Both the position numbers and the translations under genes were made by a program. A stretch of 64,000 nucleotides of DNA from Rhizocola hellebori (GTDB taxonomy: Bacteria; Actinomycetota; Actinomycetes; Mycobacteriales; Micromonosporaceae). Of the stretch, positions 27,795 to 36,825 are shown one piece after another (the first letter of the stretch is position 1; the number at the start of each line of letters is the position of its first letter). The notes under the pieces were generated by a model. That model saw nothing but the letters and a program-made list of their open reading frames with translations, ran no database searches and was not told the DNA's origin. The stretch is taken from assembly GCF_016862955.1 (NCBI RefSeq), contig NZ_BONY01000006.1:62001-126000 (forward strand). The letters run 5' to 3'.

Positions 27795-28322
27795 GTGGAT
27801 GCCTCCGAAATCCAGAACGCTCTGGCCCGCCTTCGCGACCAGCGGGCCGAGCTGGACCTTGCCGAACGCGCGCTCATCGAGCAGGCGCGGGAGGCCGGGC
27901 TGGGCTGGGCGCAGATCGCCTCGGCGCTGGGCCTCGCGTCACGCCAAGCGGCGGAGCAGCGTCTGCTGCGGTTGTCGGCGGGCAGCACGCGCGATCCGGT
28001 CCAGGCTCGCGCCAAGCGAGCGAAGCAACGAATCGTTGACAACCCCTTCGGCCCGAGCATTGCCGAGCTTCGTTCGGCTGCCCGCGCGGCCCAGATCCAG
28101 GTCGCGATCGTCGATGGCTGGGATGCCCTTCATCCTCGCGCCGGCCTGATTCGCCGCTCGCTTGAGCTGGCCGTCTCGGCCCCACCAAGTGGGCTCTATG
28201 AGCTCGCGCGGCAAGCGATCGAGGACAGCACCCAGCTGCCGGTGGCTGAGGTGCCGCCCGCGGCCGGGGAAGCGATCCGGAAGCTGGCGTTGACACTGGA
28301 GGCAGCAACCCCAAAGATATGA
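27795..28322 (+). CDS. Helix-turn-helix protein, likely autoregulator
   Basis: The 175-residue protein has an N-terminal helix and an HTH at about residues 32-56 (EAGLGWAQIASALGLASRQAAEQRL), related in type to the small HTH protein at 13950-14180. The rest is helical with no recognised domain. It sits behind a leaderless promoter whose spacer is a palindrome; the same 13-base core CAACGAATCGTTG recurs inside its own gene at 28026-28038. That makes self-repression likely. It is followed by an MFS gene 30 bases downstream. Confidence 0.72.
   Translation: MDASEIQNALARLRDQRAELDLAERALIEQAREAGLGWAQIASALGLASRQAAEQRLLRLSAGSTRDPVQARAKRAKQRIVDNPFGPSIAELRSAARAAQIQVAIVDGWDALHPRAGLIRRSLELAVSAPPSGLYELARQAIEDSTQLPVAEVPPAAGEAIRKLALTLEAATPKI
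28026..28038. repeat. Intragenic copy of the promoter palindrome
   Basis: CAACGAATCGTTG is a perfect 13-base palindrome identical (on the opposite strand) to the core at 27765-27777. The surrounding bases extend the match to CGTTG followed by ACAA. It lies 255 bases into the coding sequence of the HTH gene and could be an auxiliary operator for DNA looping. Confidence 0.6.
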
Positions 28323-28352
28323 GTCCTGACGACTCAACTATGGGGAGGGCTC

Positions 28353-29543
28353 ATGCTCAGGGAGCGAAACTCGGCCCTCTTTCTCGGCATTTCCCTGGTC
28401 GCCGGTTTCGGCGGCAACGCGATGTCACTGGTCGCCTCGATCTGGGTGCTCAGCTTGACCGGGTCCAGCAGCCTGGCCGCGCTGATCGGCTTCTGCCTCT
28501 ACCTCCCGTCGGTCTTCGGCCCGCTCGTCGGCACGGCCGTCGACCGCCTGCCGCGTCAGCGGCTGCTCGTCTGGACCACGCTGGCCACCGCCGCCCTCAT
28601 GCTCACCCTGCTGACGCTGCGTTCGGAGGGTCAGCTGTGGATCCTGTTCACCGTGATGTTCGGCTACGGCGTGTGTCACGTCGTGCTCGACGCGGCGGAG
28701 GCCGCCCTGCTTCCGGCGGCATTGGCCGATGCCGCCCTCGGTCAGCTCAACGGCCTGCGGATGAGCGCCCGGGAAGGCATGAAGCTGCTGGCGCCCGCGG
28801 CGGGTGCGGGCCTGTTCACCTGGATGGGCGGCAACGCTGTCGCTGTGGTGGTGGCGGCGACGCTTGCCATGACCGCGTGGCTGTATTCGCTGATCCGCCC
28901 CGCCCATGCGGTTCCGGCCGCCGCCGGTGGCCGGGTGCTGCATGACATGCGCGACGGTGTTCGCTACCTGTGGTCGCATCGGTGGCTTCGCGTGGTGGTC
29001 GCCACCGCGGCCGTGGCGGTGCCGATGTCCGGGTTCGCTCTGGCCGCCTCGTATTCGGTCATCATCGACGACCTGCATCAGCCGCCGGCCTTCGCCGGGT
29101 TCCTCGCGTCGGCGCAGGGCGCGGGCTCCATCGCCGGCGGGCTGCTCGCCGGTCGGCTCATCGCCTGGCGGGGCGAGGCGTTCCTGGGCGGTGCCGGTGC
29201 GGTGATCTTCGCGGCGAGCCCGCTGCTGCGCCTCATTCCGGTCGTTCCCTTCGCCATCGTCTGCAGCGTCCTGGCCGGCGTCGGTCTACTGTGGACGGTC
29301 GTGGCGGCGATGACCGCCGTGCAGCGGCACACCCCGCAAGCCCTCCTCGGCCGGGTGGCGGCCACCGCGGGCTCGCTCACCTTCGCCCCGACCGCGTTGG
29401 CCATCCCGGCCGGGGCCGCCGCCGTTCCGGTGCTCGGCCACCATCCGCCGCTGGTGCTCACCGGGATCGCCTGTCTCGCTGTGGGTGTGGTCGCCCTGAA
29501 CCTGGTCCGGACCGAAGTCCCCGCGGTGCAGAGCGCCGCGTGA
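28353..29543 (+). CDS. MFS transporter (MFS_3/EntS-like)
   Basis: The 396-residue protein has about 12 hydrophobic helices and the loop motif GTAVDRLPRQR after helix 2. The proportions resemble the MFS_3 group, which includes siderophore and drug exporters. ATG 28353 follows GGGGAGGG. A short inverted repeat GAGTC-CTGAC-GACTC lies just upstream. It is 30 bases behind the HTH gene and may share its transcript. Substrate unknown. Confidence 0.88.
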   Translation: MLRERNSALFLGISLVAGFGGNAMSLVASIWVLSLTGSSSLAALIGFCLYLPSVFGPLVGTAVDRLPRQRLLVWTTLATAALMLTLLTLRSEGQLWILFTVMFGYGVCHVVLDAAEAALLPAALADAALGQLNGLRMSAREGMKLLAPAAGAGLFTWMGGNAVAVVVAATLAMTAWLYSLIRPAHAVPAAAGGRVLHDMRDGVRYLWSHRWLRVVVATAAVAVPMSGFALAASYSVIIDDLHQPPAFAGFLASAQGAGSIAGGLLAGRLIAWRGEAFLGGAGAVIFAASPLLRLIPVVPFAIVCSVLAGVGLLWTVVAAMTAVQRHTPQALLGRVAATAGSLTFAPTALAIPAGAAAVPVLGHHPPLVLTGIACLAVGVVALNLVRTEVPAVQSAA

Positions 29544-29607
29544 TCGTTAGGAAGTCGAGTTGTTGCCCAAAGGTGACTCGGTGGCCAGGCCGGGCCTACA
29601 GTGAGCC

Positions 29608-30084
29608 ATGCCGATCGCTGCCCGTCGCTATCTCCCGCTGCCGCTGCTTTGCGCGGCATTGCTTCTCACCGGTTGCGGGGGGCAGGCCACACCCTCCGCC
29701 GCGCCGACCGCAGTTACCACGCTGGGCGAGCAGGCGCTGCCGCCGACAGCATCGCCGAGCCCCACCAAGGCTTCGCCGAAGCCGAGCACGCCCGCTCCGG
29801 TCACCTATCCGAGCGAGGCCAAGGCCTACGCGGAAGCGGTCATCGCGGCATGGAAGGCCAAGAACCTGGCCAGATTGGCCGATCTAGCCAGCGCTCAGAT
29901 TCAGGAGCAGCTGATGGAGATCCCGGGACCGCCCAACATGGACTGGACCTACCTGATGTGTGACGGCGCCATGGGATCGAGTTACTGCCAGTTCACCAAC
30001 ACCGACGGCCACAAGGTCACCGTGCGCGTGCTCAACGAGAAGGTGGGCCAGGCGCACGCGGTATCCGAGGTCAAGTACGTGTGA
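29608..30084 (+). CDS. Small secreted lipoprotein
   Basis: The 158-residue protein has a lipoprotein signal peptide with lipobox LLTGC (Cys23), a Pro/Ser/Thr-rich linker (residues 28-65) and a soluble domain that starts with helix EAKAYAEAVIAAWKAKNLARLADL. That NTF2-like pattern is common in actinobacterial lipoproteins. Two cysteines in the tail (LMCDGAMGSSYCQF) may form a disulfide. It converges on P450 gene 1 with a 14-base overlap. Function unknown. Confidence 0.75.
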   Translation: MPIAARRYLPLPLLCAALLLTGCGGQATPSAAPTAVTTLGEQALPPTASPSPTKASPKPSTPAPVTYPSEAKAYAEAVIAAWKAKNLARLADLASAQIQEQLMEIPGPPNMDWTYLMCDGAMGSSYCQFTNTDGHKVTVRVLNEKVGQAHAVSEVKYV

Positions 30085-31282
30085 CCGGCCGGACCGTGCC
30101 GAAAAGGTTGACCGGGACGGCGACAGCGCCGAGGGCTATCTCGGGCGGCCGGGCAGAATCGGCCCAATCTATGCGGTACCTGGTACACAGCAGATGGCAG
30201 AGCGCGATCAGCTGAACCGTGCCCAACGCGGCACCCGGACAGGTTTTGGGCGGCAAACCGAACGGCAGGTAACCGGCGGACAGGCCGGGGCTGCGGGCCA
30301 GCCAGCGCTGCGGGTCGAATTGCTCGGGCCGTTCCCAGCGGGCCGGATCGCGATGGATCAGATGCGGGCTGACCACATAGGTCTGCCCGGCGGACAGCTC
30401 GACCGGCGGCACCGAGATGCTGATCCGCGCCGTGCGGGCCAGCAGCAGCGGCGGGCTCCACATCCGCAGCGCCTCCTTGACGAAACGCGTGGTGATCGGA
30501 GTGGCCGCAGGGGCGTGCAGGCCGGTCTGCGGCACCTGGGCCAGCTCGGCTTGCAGGTGCTCGGTCCACTCACGGTGGCGGTGCATCGCGAAAAGAAGGC
30601 AGGCGCCGATCGCGCCGGGCGGGCCGGCGATCGCGGTGAGCAACGCCGTCACCGCGTCGACCGCCCTGCCATAACCGACGGTCGGCAGCAGGTCCACCAG
30701 CGGATCGGTCAGGTCTGCCCGGCGGTCACGGCGGCCTCGGGCCCGGCCGCGCAACTCGGCGCGCACGACGAATCCGGCGCGTATCTCGGTGGCGGTCGTG
30801 CGCAGCCTGCTCCAGCGGCTGTGCTTTGGCTGCAGCGTCGCCAGGTCGGTGAAGCCGAACGTCACGTCCCGGCGGATCCGTGCATCGTCCACATCGGACA
30901 GACCGTCGATGACGATCGGCAGCAGGGAATAGGTGCACACCTCCTGGGCCAGCTGAGCCAGGTCCAACTGCGCGCCGGCGCGCTGCGCGAGCAGTGCGTC
31001 CATCCGCTCGTACAGGGCGGTGACCGCCTCGGCCCCGGTCAGCCGCCGCAGCACGGGCCCCCACGCGGCGCGGATCTGCTTCCACGACACCGGTTCACGG
31101 CGCCCGGCCAGCAGGTCACCGATCGGGTCGGGCACCTCCTGGTCCCGGAAGTTGATCGCGTTGATGCGCGCGGCGATGTCCGCGTCGAACACTGCGATGG
31201 TGTCCGGGGAAATGCGGAAGATGTTGCCCTCGATGGCTCGGCGCCGCCGAAGCTCACGCAGCCGGTCCGGTGTCTGAGTCAC
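30071..31282 (-). CDS. Cytochrome P450 with atypical heme loop (RiPP cluster, second P450)
   Basis: The 403-residue protein has the P450 ExxR motif in VKEALRMWSPP, the PERF-like WERPEQFDPQRWL, and heme loop FGLPPKTCPGAALG with axial Cys348. The canonical FGxGxHxCxG is altered: the fourth position is Pro instead of Gly and the sixth is Lys. The I-helix segment AIAGPPGAIGA lacks the usual Thr. Those departures are seen in P450s that crosslink peptides rather than hydroxylate small molecules, an inference. The GTG start at 31282 lies 49 bases after the small precursor gene and shares its operon. Confidence 0.9.
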   Translation of the reverse strand: MTQTPDRLRELRRRRAIEGNIFRISPDTIAVFDADIAARINAINFRDQEVPDPIGDLLAGRREPVSWKQIRAAWGPVLRRLTGAEAVTALYERMDALLAQRAGAQLDLAQLAQEVCTYSLLPIVIDGLSDVDDARIRRDVTFGFTDLATLQPKHSRWSRLRTTATEIRAGFVVRAELRGRARGRRDRRADLTDPLVDLLPTVGYGRAVDAVTALLTAIAGPPGAIGACLLFAMHRHREWTEHLQAELAQVPQTGLHAPAATPITTRFVKEALRMWSPPLLLARTARISISVPPVELSAGQTYVVSPHLIHRDPARWERPEQFDPQRWLARSPGLSAGYLPFGLPPKTCPGAALGTVQLIALCHLLCTRYRIDWADSARPPEIALGAVAVPVNLFGTVRPVTRT

Positions 31283-31304
31283 GCTGGGAGGCCCTTGCCG
31301 TGGG

Positions 31305-31325
31305 GCGGGGAGGTGTGCTCCCCGC
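31305..31325 (-). terminator. Hairpin between precursor gene and downstream P450
   Basis: GCGGGGAG at 31305-31312 pairs with CTCCCCGC at 31318-31325 (eight GC-rich pairs, five-base loop). On the minus strand it begins six bases after the precursor stop. It has no U-run. A partial terminator or RNA-stabilising structure here would raise precursor yield over the downstream enzyme, as often seen in RiPP operons. Confidence 0.65.
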
Positions 31326-31331
31326 GGCGGA

Positions 31332-31436
31332 TCAGATGTGGTGGTAGATAACCCAGTAAGCGTGGGATCCGTCGGTCGGGTGCCTCCGGGCGCGGATGTG
31401 CAGGGCCAGCTTGATCGACTGAAGCAGGTTCCTCAT
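31332..31436 (-). CDS. Predicted RiPP precursor peptide, P450-crosslinked type
   Basis: This 34-codon gene starts at ATG 31436, overlapping the stop of the upstream P450 (ATGA), and has a ribosome binding site GGAGGTGA nine bases upstream. The peptide begins MRNLLQSIKLALHIRARR, an amphipathic, basic leader, and ends in AYWVIYHHI (residues 26-34). The aromatic tail has Tyr27, Trp28, Tyr31, His32 and His33. It resembles the core of tryptorubin-type atropopeptides (AWYIWY) and the Tyr/Trp/His cores of biarylitides and cittilins, where a P450 makes biaryl or C-N bonds. Position between two P450 genes supports a substrate role. Structure and cleavage site cannot be predicted. Confidence 0.82.
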   Translation of the reverse strand: MRNLLQSIKLALHIRARRHPTDGSHAYWVIYHHI

Positions 31437-32578
31437 CTTTCTTCACCTCCCCTCTGGGCGCGGGTGGACAGGGACAGGACAAACTCGGGCGGGGCGAGGG
31501 CGGGACCGGTGTGGGGGCGGGGATCGTCGACCGCCACCGACAGGTGATAACGGTCAGTGATCACGCGCAGCAGCTCCTCGACCAGGCCGAGCGAGAGCGC
31601 CGCCCCGGTGCAGGCGTGCGGGCCCCAGCCGAAGGGCAGGAACGCCGCTGGGTTCGCGCCTCCCCACCGCTGCGGCTGGAAGGTGTTGGGCTCGGGCCAG
31701 TGGGCCGGATGGCGGTGCACAAGGTAGGTGCACACCGAAACGGTTTCTCCCGGCTCGACGACGGCTGGCCCGATGCGGTGTCTGCGGGCCGCCACCCGTC
31801 CGAAGAGCCAGGCGACCGGCCACAGCCGAAGCGCCTCGCGCACGGTGGCGGACAGCGGGATCTGCCCGGGCGGCTCATGCTGACCCAGCAGGAAAAGCGA
31901 CCACGCCAGCAGGAATCCCACCGAGCCGGTGGTGGCGAAAAGCAGGCTCAGGAACACCTCACCGGCCTGCTCCGGTGGATGCGTCGGCGCCGTCGCCAGG
32001 GCCACCACGCCGAGCAGGTCGGCGGCCGGGCCCGATTCCCGGCGGCGCGCCACGATCTCGGCCGCCAGCAGGCCGTGGGCTCGGCGCCGCAGCAGCGCGC
32101 GCTGCCATCGCCTGCGCCTTTCCCGGGCACCGGCCAGCACTGCGTGTTTCACCACGTCGGTCAGGGCGGCCGGCAGCCGGGACGAGGTGTGGGTGGCGAG
32201 CAGCGCGGGCCGGAAATAGTCCGCCAGCAGATGGTTGGCGGCATCGGGCAGCCGGCTGCTGGGCCACAGGTGGGATTCGACGAGCCCGTCGAGACGGCCC
32301 GCGCTGCTCTGGATGAACCCGGCGAGCAGCTCCCGGGCCTCCCGGCCGATGCGCTGCTGGATTTCGCGCGGCCCGAGCACTCCCGCGGAGGTGTGGAAGA
32401 AGTCCGAGTGCTCGACGTAATGTCCCTCGGCGTTGGCCAGGATCTGCTTGGCATGCCACGGATCGGCCACATACAGCCCCCCGCTCGCCACCGTGAACAG
32501 GTCGCCATCTTCGGCGAACCTTGTTTCCAGTAGCTCCAGCAGCCGGTCGTCGAGGGGAGGCACCCAAGCATTGGACAC
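31433..32578 (-). CDS. Cytochrome P450 (RiPP cluster, first P450)
   Basis: The 381-residue protein has ExxR in TVREALRLWPVAW, the HRHPAHWPEPNTFQPQRW segment and a canonical heme loop FGWGPHACTGAALS with axial Cys323 (numbered from the GTG). The I-helix reads LLFATTGSVGF, without the usual acid-alcohol pair. A GTG at 32578 or 32563 or a TTG at 32599 could be the start. The region just upstream is unusually AT-rich (ATTCATATATAT), probably the operon promoter. The stop overlaps the precursor gene start. Together with the second P450 it is likely to crosslink the precursor. No ferredoxin or reductase is nearby. Confidence 0.9.
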   Translation of the reverse strand: MSNAWVPPLDDRLLELLETRFAEDGDLFTVASGGLYVADPWHAKQILANAEGHYVEHSDFFHTSAGVLGPREIQQRIGREARELLAGFIQSSAGRLDGLVESHLWPSSRLPDAANHLLADYFRPALLATHTSSRLPAALTDVVKHAVLAGARERRRRWQRALLRRRAHGLLAAEIVARRRESGPAADLLGVVALATAPTHPPEQAGEVFLSLLFATTGSVGFLLAWSLFLLGQHEPPGQIPLSATVREALRLWPVAWLFGRVAARRHRIGPAVVEPGETVSVCTYLVHRHPAHWPEPNTFQPQRWGGANPAAFLPFGWGPHACTGAALSLGLVEELLRVITDRYHLSVAVDDPRPHTGPALAPPEFVLSLSTRAQRGGEER

Positions 32579-32663
32579 CGATATATATGAATAAGGCAAT
32601 CAGTAGTTCGGCCGACTGCACGCGCGGGGCATAGCCGGTAGCTGATGGGCGATACTGATAGCC

Positions 32664-33848
32664 GTGCTGACCAACTGGGCCGGAAATGTGATCTTCGGGG
32701 CGCGCGAGTTCCACCAGCCGTCCACTGTGGACGAAGTTCGGGCGCTGGTCGCTCGCAGCGAAAGGATCAAGGCGGTGGGCAGCGGGCACTCCTTCAGCCT
32801 CATCGCCGACACGCAGGGCGATCTGGTCTCGTTGCGTCAGCTGCCGCCCCTCATGGAGATCGATTCGGCGGCGATGACGGTAAAGGTCGCAGCCGGGGTG
32901 CGCTACGGCGAGCTGGCGCCATTTCTGCACAGCCACGGCTATGCGCTGGCCAACCTGGGATCCCTTCCCCACCTGTCGGTGGCCGGGGCGACCGCGACCG
33001 CGACCCACGGCTCCGGCGACCGCAACGGCAACCTGGCCACGTCGGTCGCCTCCCTGGACCTGGTGACCGCGCAAGGCGACACGGTGACCCTTGACCGCGC
33101 CAGCGGAGCCGTCGTAAACCTTGGCGCGCTTGGCATCGCCGTCGCCGTGACGCTCGACATCGAGCCGGCCTTCCAGATCAGCCAGCGCGTCTACCGCAAC
33201 CTGCCCGAGCTGGATCTGGACATCTTCGCCAGCGCCTACAGCGTCAGCATGTTCACCCAATGGCGAGGCGAGAGCCTCGACCAGGTCTGGGTCAAGGAAC
33301 GTGTCGGGGCGCAAACCCAAGCATGGCAGGGGAAACAGCCGGCGATGGCCCCCATGCACCCGATCGCGGGGATGCCCGCCGACAGCTGCACCCCGCAGCT
33401 GGGCGAGCCGGGCCCTTGGTACGAAAGGCTTCCGCACTTCCGGCTCGAGCACACCCCCAGCGCCGGTGACGAGCTGCAATCGGAGTTCTTCGTGCCGCGT
33501 TCCCAGGCGGTGCAGGCGTTCCAGGCGATAAACGGGATCCGCGAGCGGGTCGCCGCCGTGCTGCAGATCAGCGAGATCCGCACCATCGCCGCCGATGAGC
33601 TGTGGATGAGTCCTTGCTACCAAAGGGAAAGCGTCGCCTTCCACTTCACCTGGATCAAAGACCCGGCCGCCGTGCTGCCGGTGGTGCAGGCCCTCGAGGA
33701 GGAGCTCGCGCCCTTCGAGCCGCGACCGCACTGGGGCAAGGTGTTCACCATGCGCCCGGCCGTTCACCCCGGCTTTGCCGGCCTGATCGAGCTTTACGAC
33801 CCGGCCGGCAAATTCCGCAACCCGTTCTTGGACAGGGCCCTGAGCTGA
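32664..33848 (+). CDS. FAD-linked oxidase, alditol/xylitol oxidase-like
   Basis: The 394-residue protein has the FAD_binding_4 domain with AVGSGHSFSLIAD, where His42 aligns with the residue that binds FAD covalently in alditol oxidase, and SVAGATATATHGSG. The C-terminal half matches the ALO domain (RPHWGKVFTM near residue 355). AldO oxidises polyols such as xylitol and sorbitol and releases H2O2. Start GTG 32664 diverges from the P450 operon with 85 bases between. A link to the RiPP pathway is possible but unproven. Its 3' end overlaps the convergent regulator by 55 bases. Confidence 0.88.
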   Translation: MLTNWAGNVIFGAREFHQPSTVDEVRALVARSERIKAVGSGHSFSLIADTQGDLVSLRQLPPLMEIDSAAMTVKVAAGVRYGELAPFLHSHGYALANLGSLPHLSVAGATATATHGSGDRNGNLATSVASLDLVTAQGDTVTLDRASGAVVNLGALGIAVAVTLDIEPAFQISQRVYRNLPELDLDIFASAYSVSMFTQWRGESLDQVWVKERVGAQTQAWQGKQPAMAPMHPIAGMPADSCTPQLGEPGPWYERLPHFRLEHTPSAGDELQSEFFVPRSQAVQAFQAINGIRERVAAVLQISEIRTIAADELWMSPCYQRESVAFHFTWIKDPAAVLPVVQALEEELAPFEPRPHWGKVFTMRPAVHPGFAGLIELYDPAGKFRNPFLDRALS

Positions 33849-34648
33849 CAGAGCTTCAGCTGCGCGGGTGAGCCGGGCGCGGCCGTGTAGATGATCAGCC
33901 GCTGATCGCGGTCGGGGATGTGCAGCACCTGGCATTCGATGGCGATCTCGCCCAGCTCGGGATGCGAGATGACCTTGCGTTGGTCGCGGCGCACCTCGAC
34001 GTCGTGGGTGGCCCACATCTGCGCGAACTCCGGGCTCAACGCGAGCATCTCGGCCACCAGCTCGCGAATCCCGCGGTCCTCGGGATAGCGGGCGGCCGCC
34101 GCGCGCAGATCGGCCACCGAACCCCAGGCGAAGCGGCTCTTCTCCTCGTCGCAGAGGTGCTCCCGCAGGTTCGGCGCGGCGAAGATCCAGCGGATCACGT
34201 TGCCCTGTTTGGGTCCGGACTCGTACGGCCACCCGAACAGGGCCGCGCAGGTGTCGTTCCAGGCCAGCATGTCGTATTTGGCGTCGAGCACATAGGCCGG
34301 TGTCCCGTCGAGCCCCTCGAGCAGATGCAGCACCCCCTCGGGCACATCGCGGCGCGGCCCTTGCGAAAGCGCCGGGGCCTGGCCGGTCAGATGAAACAGG
34401 TGAGCCCGCTCATCGGTGGTCAGCATCAGGGCCCGCCCCAGCGCGTTGAGAATCTGGCGTGACGGGTGCGGGCCGCGGCCCTGCTCAAGGCGCGTGTAGT
34501 AGTCGACGGACATGCCGGCCAGCTGGGCCACCTCCTCGCGGCGCAGCCCCGGCACCCGGCGGCGCGAATTGCCTGGCAGACCTACCTCGATCGGGCTCAC
34601 CCGAGCCCGGCGGGTGCGGAGGAAGTCCGCTAGCTCGCGACGATCCAT
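33794..34648 (-). CDS. XRE family regulator with MmyB-like ligand domain
   Basis: The 284-residue protein has an N-terminal HTH (residues 5-75, RVPGLRREEVAQLAGMSVDYYTRLEQGR) followed by a PAS-like MmyB domain (from about residue 105: PAYVLDAKYDMLAWN). These regulators typically control an adjacent oxidoreductase, here the divergent SDR. ATG 34648 is chosen; ATG 34654 is six bases upstream. A longer in-frame extension to 34789 is non-conserved. The convergent AldO-like gene overlaps its end by 55 bases. Confidence 0.9.
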   Translation of the reverse strand: MDRRELADFLRTRRARVSPIEVGLPGNSRRRVPGLRREEVAQLAGMSVDYYTRLEQGRGPHPSRQILNALGRALMLTTDERAHLFHLTGQAPALSQGPRRDVPEGVLHLLEGLDGTPAYVLDAKYDMLAWNDTCAALFGWPYESGPKQGNVIRWIFAAPNLREHLCDEEKSRFAWGSVADLRAAAARYPEDRGIRELVAEMLALSPEFAQMWATHDVEVRRDQRKVISHPELGEIAIECQVLHIPDRDQRLIIYTAAPGSPAQLKLCQLRALSKNGLRNLPAGS

Positions 34649-34748
34649 GCCCATAGCATTGCCGAAGCCGGTCGTTTCTGACAGGGATCGGCAGTCCCAG
34701 GATGAACCGGGCCTTCCGGGGCGAGGGCGGGGCGGGCACCGTACCCGT

Positions 34749-35453
34749 ATGACAAAAATTGCTTTGGTGACCGGTGCCAACAAGGGCATCGGATTCGAGA
34801 CGGCGCGACTGCTCGCGGATCAGGGCCACACGGTGCTGGTGGGGGCCCGTGACGAGGGGCGCGGCCGGGCCGCCGCAGAACGGATCAACGCGAGGTTTCT
34901 GCAGCTCGACGTCACCGACGCGGCGTCCATCTCGGCGGCGGCCAAGGAGATTGACGACACTTGGGGGGTACTGGACATCCTTGTCAACAACGCCGCCATC
35001 GGTGTCTGGGACGGGCCGGCCAGCCAATCCACCCTCGACGCGCTGAGAACCACGTTTGAGACCAACCTCTTCGGCATCGTCGCATTGACCAATGCCTTGC
35101 TGCCGCTGCTGCGCCGATCCTCGGCCGGGCGAATAGTCAACGTCTCCAGCGACGTCGGCTCCATCGCCCTGATGACCGACCCGGCCAATCCGCTGTACAT
35201 GCTCAACGGGGTGGCCTACCCCGCCTCGAAGTCGGCGCTCAACATGGCCACCATGCAATACGCCAAGGAACTCAAGGACACCCCGATCAAAGTGAACGCG
35301 GTCAGCCCCGGCTATTGCGCCACCGACCTCAACAACAACAGCGGCTACCGCACGCCTGAACAGGGCGCCCAAATCGCCGTCCAGATGGCCAACCTGGGCC
35401 CGGACGGCCCCACCGGCGCCTTCGTCGACGACACCGGAACCCTGCCCTGGTAA
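34749..35453 (+). CDS. Short-chain dehydrogenase/reductase
   Basis: The 234-residue Rossmann protein has the NAD(P) motif VTGANKGIGFETA (residues 8-20), NNAAIG, and catalytic Ser-Tyr-Lys in VNVSSDVGS and VAYPASKSALN. It resembles carbonyl-reductase-like SDRs. It diverges from the MmyB-type regulator, its likely controller, with 100 bases between. Substrate unknown. Confidence 0.92.
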   Translation: MTKIALVTGANKGIGFETARLLADQGHTVLVGARDEGRGRAAAERINARFLQLDVTDAASISAAAKEIDDTWGVLDILVNNAAIGVWDGPASQSTLDALRTTFETNLFGIVALTNALLPLLRRSSAGRIVNVSSDVGSIALMTDPANPLYMLNGVAYPASKSALNMATMQYAKELKDTPIKVNAVSPGYCATDLNNNSGYRTPEQGAQIAVQMANLGPDGPTGAFVDDTGTLPW

Positions 35454-35497
35454 CACAGCGTCAGCGTGGTGCGCGGTGTCGTGACCGGCCTCATGCC

Positions 35498-35555
35498 GGC
35501 AGATCTAAAGCATGAGGTCGGCAGATCTAAAGCGACTGTCTCGGCAGATCTAAAG
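35498..35555 (+). repeat. Three direct repeats upstream of DUF4143 ATPase
   Basis: GGCAGATCTAAAG occurs exactly at 35498-35510, 35520-35532 and 35543-35555, with start-to-start distances of 22 and 23 bases, i.e. about two helical turns. The last copy ends 19 bases before the ATPase start codon. Such phased iterons usually bind a protein cooperatively. Confidence 0.8.
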
Positions 35556-35574
35556 TATCTGTTATCGTTTGGGC

Positions 35575-36825
35575 ATGCGAAAGGGCCTAGAATACGTGCC
35601 CCGGCGCGCTTCAGACCTGGTGATGGAGGCGCTCACGGACACACGGGTTGTCGTCGTAAATGGCGCTCGTCAGGTGGGCAAAAGCACCCTGGCAGAGGTC
35701 GTCCTGCGCCAGTCAAACGGTGGACAAGCGCGATTCCTCGATGATCCAGGTACCCGCGCCGCAGCAGCGGCGGACCCAGTTCGTTTTATCCGCCACGACG
35801 ATCTCATGCTGATCGACGAGGTGCAGCGGGTACCCGACCTCTGGCTGGCCATCAAAAACCTTGTCGACCGGGAGCCTAGACCTGGCCGCTTCCTCTTAAC
35901 TGGCTCAGCGCGGCTGCTGAGTCTGCGAAGTTTGCCAGATGCGCTGCCGGGCCGATCGGAGACCATCGAGCTGTGGCCACTATCTCAAGGAGAGATCGAC
36001 GGAGGCCCAGATGGATTCGTGGACGCGGCTTTCGCAATAGGTGGTGACCTGAGAGCGGATCCGCACGAACTCCGGCGTGCGGATTACTTGCAGCGACTCA
36101 TGCGTGGGGGCTTCCCAGACGCTGTGCGGCGGGCGACGCCGCGACGACGTGAGAGGTTCTTTGAGGCCTATCTGGCCGACGTGATTACCCGCGACGTGCA
36201 GCAGGTCGCCGATATTGAGCGGGCTGGCGACATGCGCCGCCTGATTGCGCTTCTGGCAGCGCAAACCGGTGGCCTCGTGAACTTCTCTCGCCTGGCCAAT
36301 GATTTGAGTATTACCGCACCTACCGTGCGGAGCTATGTGGAAATCTTGGAGACCATCTATCTGGTTCGCCTAATTCCTGCGTGGTCTTCAGGCGCCACGG
36401 CCAGAGCCATCGGTGCACCGAAGCTCATCTTTGTCGACTCCGGGCTTGCCGCCAGTGTTGCCACAGGTGCTGTGGCGGAGCCGCCGGTTGGGGGACTGCT
36501 GGAGGGTTTCGTGTTAAGCGAACTCGCCCGTCAGCTGACGTGGTCCAACGCCAAAGCCCGTCTCTACCACTACCGCGATCGCGATCAGTACGAAGTGGAC
36601 GCCATCCTGGAGGACAACGCTGGGTACGTAATAGGCATTGAGGTGAAGGCGTCCGAAACCATTAGAGCTGAGGACTTCAATGGGCTAAGGCATCTACAGC
36701 GAAGGCTCGGCGCGCACTTCCGAGCCGGCTACGTCCTATACTGCGGAAGCGATTCCCTCAGTTTCGGGGACGGCCTGGCATGCCTTCCAATATCGGCACT
36801 CTGGACCACCGATGCCCGCGCCTGA
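35575..36825 (+). CDS. AAA ATPase with DUF4143 (PD-(D/E)XK-like) domain
   Basis: The 416-residue protein has a Walker A NGARQVGKST (residues 29-38), Walker B LMLIDEVQRVPDLW and sensor LLTGSARLL, followed from about residue 200 by DUF4143. The C-terminal YEVDAILEDN and IGIEVKAS segments fit a PD-(D/E)XK nuclease-like core (D, then ExK). The codon use is looser and the GC content visibly lower than neighbours, a sign of transfer. ATG 35575 is chosen; a TTG six bases upstream is possible. It is preceded by three phased repeats. This family is common in bacteria and archaea and has no firm function. Confidence 0.88.
   Translation: MRKGLEYVPRRASDLVMEALTDTRVVVVNGARQVGKSTLAEVVLRQSNGGQARFLDDPGTRAAAAADPVRFIRHDDLMLIDEVQRVPDLWLAIKNLVDREPRPGRFLLTGSARLLSLRSLPDALPGRSETIELWPLSQGEIDGGPDGFVDAAFAIGGDLRADPHELRRADYLQRLMRGGFPDAVRRATPRRRERFFEAYLADVITRDVQQVADIERAGDMRRLIALLAAQTGGLVNFSRLANDLSITAPTVRSYVEILETIYLVRLIPAWSSGATARAIGAPKLIFVDSGLAASVATGAVAEPPVGGLLEGFVLSELARQLTWSNAKARLYHYRDRDQYEVDAILEDNAGYVIGIEVKASETIRAEDFNGLRHLQRRLGAHFRAGYVLYCGSDSLSFGDGLACLPISALWTTDARA

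Follow-up and report, generated by a model that had tools for sequence, protein, structure and literature searches.

A predicted three-gene RiPP cluster of Rhizocola hellebori in which two cytochrome P450s probably join a single tryptophan-tyrosine pair

We suggest that the window, a 64-kb stretch of Rhizocola hellebori DNA, contains a three-gene RiPP cluster in which two cytochrome P450s probably join Trp28 and Tyr31 of a 34-residue precursor (MRNLLQSIKLALHIRARRHPTDGSHAYWVIYHHI), with a fused ring of the hyalucidin type as the likeliest outcome. Hyalucidin A is a two-P450 RiPP, reported under a title that ascribes a benzofuranoindoline to tandem P450 catalysis (Yin et al., Angew. Chem. 2026, e22698). 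Our comparison of 47 related loci narrows the chemistry to one testable residue pair.

The precursor gene sits between the two P450 genes (Table 1). Its ATG (31436-31434) overlaps the TGA stop of P450-1 (31435-31433, minus strand) as ATGA, and 49 bases separate it from the start of P450-2. An earlier sequence-only reading of the locus had described the overlap, the ribosome binding site, the length of the peptide and the distance to the second P450 accurately; the span that it gave, 31332-32578, covers the peptide and P450-1 but leaves P450-2 outside. Both flanking ORFs score above the Pfam PF00067 cut-off of 22.8 bits. The start of P450-1 is unsure, since neither TTG 32599 nor GTG 32578 has an evident Shine-Dalgarno stretch. 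An FAD-linked oxidase (FAD_binding_4 and ALO domains) is encoded divergently at 32664-33848 on the plus strand and is not conserved beside other loci. An Rfam scan of window positions 28000-36000 gave no matches.

Table 1. Coordinates of the features of the predicted cluster, numbered along the window
Feature	Position	Strand	Details
P450-1	31433..32599	-	388 aa from TTG 32599; alternative start at in-frame GTG 32578; Pfam PF00067, 75.4 bits
Shine-Dalgarno stretch of the precursor gene (GGAGGTGA)	31443..31450	-	Within the end of the P450-1 gene; six bases separate it from the ATG
RiPP precursor gene (predicted), 34 aa	31332..31436	-	Homologous ORF in 47/47 two-P450 loci
Leader and spacer, residues 1-25	31362..31436	-	Arg15 near-invariant; boundary to the core inferred
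Putative C-terminal core region, residues 26-34 (AYWVIYHHI)	31335..31361	-	Conserved columns -7, -4, -3 and -1; core limits putative
Trp28 codon, proposed cross-link residue	31353..31355	-	W in all 59 precursor rows
Tyr31 codon, proposed cross-link residue	31344..31346	-	Y in all 59 precursor rows
P450-2	30071..31282	-	403 aa, GTG start; Pfam PF00067, 83.2 bits

Searching 354 Micromonosporaceae genomes with P450-1 at E <= 1e-30 returned matches in five, and exactly these five also hold a strong P450-2 (E <= 3.6e-88). Eighteen further genomes of the family have only a P450 that is 28-33% identical to P450-2 (E 1.6e-33 or weaker), and among 396 genomes sampled from the phylum P450-1 matched only in that of the window. 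A profile scan of contigs with the P450-1 alignment yielded 62 loci, 57 of which (L038-L094) were examined; L095-L099, being short weak matches, and the duplicates L002, L011 and L013 were left out, L001 being the window itself. The 57 loci together with L012 and the window give 59 P450-1 rows. Both P450s are present in 47 loci, and as one of these (L043) is cut off by a contig end inside P450-2, there are 46 P450-2 rows. The two-P450 trio spans Actinomycetota, Myxococcota, Pseudomonadota and Acidobacteriota (47 distinct loci), and the window, with P450-1, P450-2 and a short ORF carrying a C-terminal W-x-x-Y-x-x-[IVLM], is one of them. Distances among the P450-1 and among the P450-2 proteins correlate with r = 0.97 across 46 loci, a figure to which shared ancestry alone contributes.

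Gene order and copy number vary between loci. In six Pseudomonadota loci of marine or freshwater origin (L075, L076, L077, L081, L082, and L094) P450-2 comes first and the precursors lie upstream, and seven loci (L060, L062, L073, L075, L076, L082, and L093) carry two to four precursors in tandem. Tandem precursors of one cluster vary in the residues around a fixed W and Y. At L062:4805-7657 the two P450s form a single frame of 951 codons, either a fusion or an assembly error, with three precursor genes lying between them in another frame. An Actinophytocola locus (L078:5977-7083) has a P450-1 homologue of 43% identity, no P450-2 and no recognisable precursor. Neighbouring genes, called by a crude rule on G+C, were compared between loci. 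Across distant clades only the P450s recurred; the genes beside the window cluster had no match at any other locus, and neither a protease nor a transporter was shared by every locus.

In each of the 47 two-P450 loci, one or more ORFs of 24-50 aa end in W..Y..x (59 ORFs, 51 of them unique), and the four other genomes of the family set with a strong P450-1 all carry a short inter-P450 ORF ending in W..YH[HN]I. On both strands of the window, a single ORF combines this length and tail with a Shine-Dalgarno-like stretch, namely 31436-31332. Across the family, GGAGG, AGGAG or a similar G-rich stretch precedes 45 of the 59 precursors, a proportion partly imposed by the ORF search. As that search also demanded Trp and Tyr in the tail, it was repeated with a profile of the leader only. 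Over 7,033 small ORFs this gave 58 matches with a W..Y tail and three without; these three have weak scores (E 0.22-0.87) and lie antisense. Since only tail-bearing peptides went into the profile, it would miss a precursor whose leader is very different.

We infer from this conservation that the 34-residue ORF on the minus strand is a real gene. It is short and its model score weak, and the haem-cysteine loop of P450-2 deviates (FGLPPKTCPG) and is modelled with low confidence, as might be expected of a chance reading frame or a decayed cluster. Such an origin is nevertheless very improbable, because a homologous ORF occupies the same place in 47/47 loci while 480,417 bases of related-locus flanks contain no ORF with the same length, Shine-Dalgarno-like stretch and W..Y..x tail, and because both P450 frames are intact with the haem cysteine present. 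The sequence-only reading had proposed a P450-modified RiPP and had let that proposal depend on a short ORF being conserved between homologous P450 pairs; its recurrence at all these loci supports the proposal.

The precursor is very probably cross-linked, to judge from the pattern of conservation. Trp(-7) and Tyr(-4), which are Trp28 and Tyr31 of the window peptide, occur in all 59 precursors, being required by the ORF search but not by the leader-only search. The precursor of Catellatospora vulcania (L038) has no Trp or Tyr beyond this pair. Its gene and that of the window use the same codons for residues 28, 29, and 31-34 but different ones for 25-27 and 30. Taken together, the constant Trp and Tyr, the sole pair in the Catellatospora peptide and the kept codons make Trp28-Tyr31 the best candidate for the joined pair, and we regard this assignment as highly likely. 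With one Trp and one Tyr, the Catellatospora peptide would be a natural minimal substrate for two P450s acting on a single pair.

The other aromatic residues of the tail are less constant. Position -8 (Tyr27 in the window) is Tyr in just one of the 51 unique precursors, the window's own. His or an aromatic residue stands at -3 in 41/51 and at -2 in 25/51 (His in 42/52 and 26/52, respectively, when alternative starts are counted apart), and Arg, Asn or Ser also occur at -3 in the family; neither His is thus needed across the family. Hence, where the sequence-only reading had listed Tyr27, Trp28, Tyr31 and His32/33 as possible partners, Trp28 and Tyr31 proved constant and Tyr27 and His32/33 did not. 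Its expectation that the C-terminal tail would be the most conserved part was borne out, with Arg15 of the leader (49/51 unique precursors) ranking alongside.

The window, Catellatospora vulcania and a third genome of the same family (G144, locus L012) form one branch, supported 100/100 in trees of both P450s (n=59 rows for P450-1, n=46 for P450-2). The P450-1 tree flags the window as a long branch, and the P450-2 tree flags the window branch and a Lysobacter branch as long branches meeting, with only a tentative place in that tree for the window branch. Within this branch, the window's P450-1 is 53-56% identical to those of L012 and L038, its P450-2 54-56% identical to those of L038 and L012, and its precursor 65-68% identical to theirs. 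An aromatic residue (counting His) stands at -9 in 44/51 unique precursors and is absent from this branch; W or Y stands at -6 in 27/51, where window, L038, and L012 have Val, Val, and Ile. The product of the branch may therefore differ from hyalucidin A.

One way in which it could differ is by two separate bridges, P450-1 joining Trp28 to Tyr31 and P450-2 bonding Tyr27, His32 or His33, which would make the peptide bicyclic and lower its mass by 4 Da relative to the linear form. The retention of both P450s despite loss of the aromatic residue at -9 and of Tyr at -6 in the branch would suit such a product, as would the identity of the His32, His33 and Ile34 codons between the window and L038 and the presence of an extra Trp at -10 in L012 and an extra Tyr at -8 in the window. 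The three peptides share no second partner at these places, though, with Tyr, Met, and Val at -8 and His, Ser, and Trp at -10 (window, L038, and L012, respectively); only His32/His33 are common to all three, and the -3 position of this pair is the one that can be Arg, Asn or Ser in the family. We therefore see two bridges as a rather unlikely outcome. The same doubtful standing applies to the wider idea that the RiPP of the window branch has a ring system absent from hyalucidin, P450-1 joining Trp28-Tyr31 and P450-2 acting on His32/33 or Tyr27. If true, the two-P450 family would serve as a platform: one enzyme would set an i,i+3 bridge from Trp (to Tyr, or to a second Trp in loci lacking P450-2), and the other would diversify that bridge.

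Turning to the enzymes, the haem cysteine is kept in both P450 types, and a P450 domain with the haem-ligand cysteine was found in both window enzymes. The I-helix block has neither D nor E in any of the 59 P450-1 or 46 P450-2 rows. A P450 I-helix lacking an acidic residue suits radical coupling better than ordinary hydroxylation. Structure models (mean pLDDT 89.7 for P450-1 and 88.8 for P450-2) retrieved only general P450 folds from a PDB library. By sequence, the sole solved chain to match the window's P450-1 at E <= 1e-30 is PDB 9ulw, 'Cytochrome P450' (236.7 bits, residues 32-380), which matches L077, the homologue from Pseudoalteromonas, better (358.8 bits); it was absent among the structure-search matches listed, perhaps because the structure library ends at 2026-04-08.

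A direct comparison for what P450-2 adds is offered by 11 Streptosporangium/Nonomuraea loci in which a P450-1 homologue occurs without P450-2, beside a precursor of 21 residues that ends in QAW[FRHY]IW. In 11/11 of them W-x-x-W replaces W-x-x-Y at the same i,i+3 spacing. This fits a P450-1 that bridges i,i+3 and a P450-2 that would need a phenol; as these loci are one clade, the link between P450-2 and Tyr counts as one evolutionary event and not as 11. Their precursors (L079, L080, L083, and L085-L092) read MRKL[LM]RRVTGRR[IV]NRQAW[FRHY]IW and lie just downstream of the P450, the one at L092 beginning with Val, from GTG. In ten of the 11 the precursor is followed by a methyltransferase-like gene (judged by eye), and two of the 21-residue peptides, compared with NCBIfam, had no matching model.

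We propose a pathway in which the ribosome would make the 34-residue precursor and its basic amphipathic leader (to about Arg15, with the spacer) would recruit P450-1 and P450-2. The enzymes would then oxidatively join Trp28 and Tyr31, i,i+3 apart: P450-1 would make the first Trp-Tyr bond, and P450-2, requiring the Tyr31 phenol, would complete the bond or oxidise it further. Whether P450-1 precedes P450-2 is an even call. By analogy with hyalucidin A, we lean slightly towards a benzofuranoindoline as the product. A protease encoded elsewhere would free the C-terminal peptide, and removal of the leader by host proteolysis is likely.

P450-1 could also be the only cross-linking enzyme, with P450-2 just hydroxylating or otherwise oxidising a residue and forming no ring bond. 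Hydroxylation is common among P450s, and one P450 suffices in the W-x-x-W sister loci. We nonetheless find this role improbable for P450-2, given that its TAIxGPPG-like I-helix has no acidic residue in 46/46 rows, unlike that of ordinary monooxygenases. The title of the hyalucidin A report, moreover, assigns the ring motif to the two P450s in tandem.

Cittilins have a YIYY-type core and a P450 and methyltransferase of their own. Tryptorubin-type atropopeptides, whose core reads AWYIWY in tryptorubin, resemble the window cluster in that P450s bridge aromatic side chains in a short C-terminal core; the precursor is likewise short and P450-modified, and P450-1 is distantly related to the P450s with the similar AW[FYHR]IW precursors. 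That the locus is itself an atropopeptide cluster is all the same very unlikely: there is one Trp in the core, its obligate partner is Tyr and the second P450 is always present. The window leader, moreover, reads QSIK, outside the atropopeptide leader motifs KSLK, RSLK, ESLK, KSRK, KPLK and PSLK given in PMC11450843. The same paper describes two P450s in the laurentirubin lau cluster, the second adding an aryl ether. Differences from the atropopeptides thus lie in the missing KSLK-type leader motif, the restriction to a Trp-Tyr pair and P450-2 as a regular part of the cluster. Biarylitides also share a P450-bridged peptide and a minimal cluster; the mining rule in PMC13417212 asks for a precursor of 5-8 aa whose third and fifth residues are aromatic, and the 34-aa window precursor falls outside it. 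Literature searches with fragments of the W-x-x-Y and W-x-x-W cores gave nothing that looked related among the matches listed. Separately, seven Micromonosporaceae loci with a P450 sharing about 30% identity with P450-2 were looked at, and six of them (L106-L111, but not L105) have next to it a second type of small ORF, of 29-32 aa and ending in GRYPYW[FL]Y[NG]Y.. or GRYIYWPYHYE; these are likely a second P450-RiPP group.

The sole NCBIfam match of the window peptide is NF053510, the hyalucidin A family precursor (16.3 bits, E 0.0081), below that model's cut-off of 35 bits; L038 and L012 score 17.5 and 12.0 bits. At genome scale the window match falls to noise level (E 0.72), and NF053510 matches at E <= 1 occur in 23/200 genomes of the order and 2/14 control genomes, none over the cut-off. 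As the 16.3-bit match alone proves nothing, the tie to hyalucidin A rests on the P450s and on intermediate loci. Precursors of Virgisporangium (42.6 and 47.8 bits), Lentzea (74.0), Myxococcus (59.9) and Streptomyces hyaluromycini (41.3) exceed the cut-off, and the two P450s adjoining the window precursor are homologous to those of the loci that pass. Overall, 31/59 precursors reach E <= 1.1e-8, which corresponds roughly to the cut-off, and 28/59 fall below, so that more two-P450 clusters are probably unannotated.

The locus of Streptomyces hyaluromycini, which we guess from its name to be the hyalucidin A producer, is a member of the two-P450 family. The low NF053510 scores, the separate branch and the lost -9 and -6 residues together point to a variant of the hyalucidin A family and not a member of it. 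Two features that the sequence-only reading had placed outside known families have precedents here: tandem P450 catalysis on one peptide is named in the title of the hyalucidin A report, and a YHHI or YHNI ending is found in the majority of homologous precursors, so neither the second P450 nor the HHI tail sets the window apart. What is shared with hyalucidin A and NF053510 is a short precursor with two P450s, and the window precursor aligns with the model from end to end (1-34 against 1-29). On sequence grounds, then, we conclude that the window cluster is a divergent relative of the hyalucidin A cluster and not a wholly new kind: its P450-1 shares 42% and its P450-2 45% identity with the Streptomyces hyaluromycini homologues, the two enzymes stand on a separate branch in both trees, and its core, AYWVIYHHI against QFWYLYHHI, lacks the aromatic residue at -9 and has Val for Tyr at -6.
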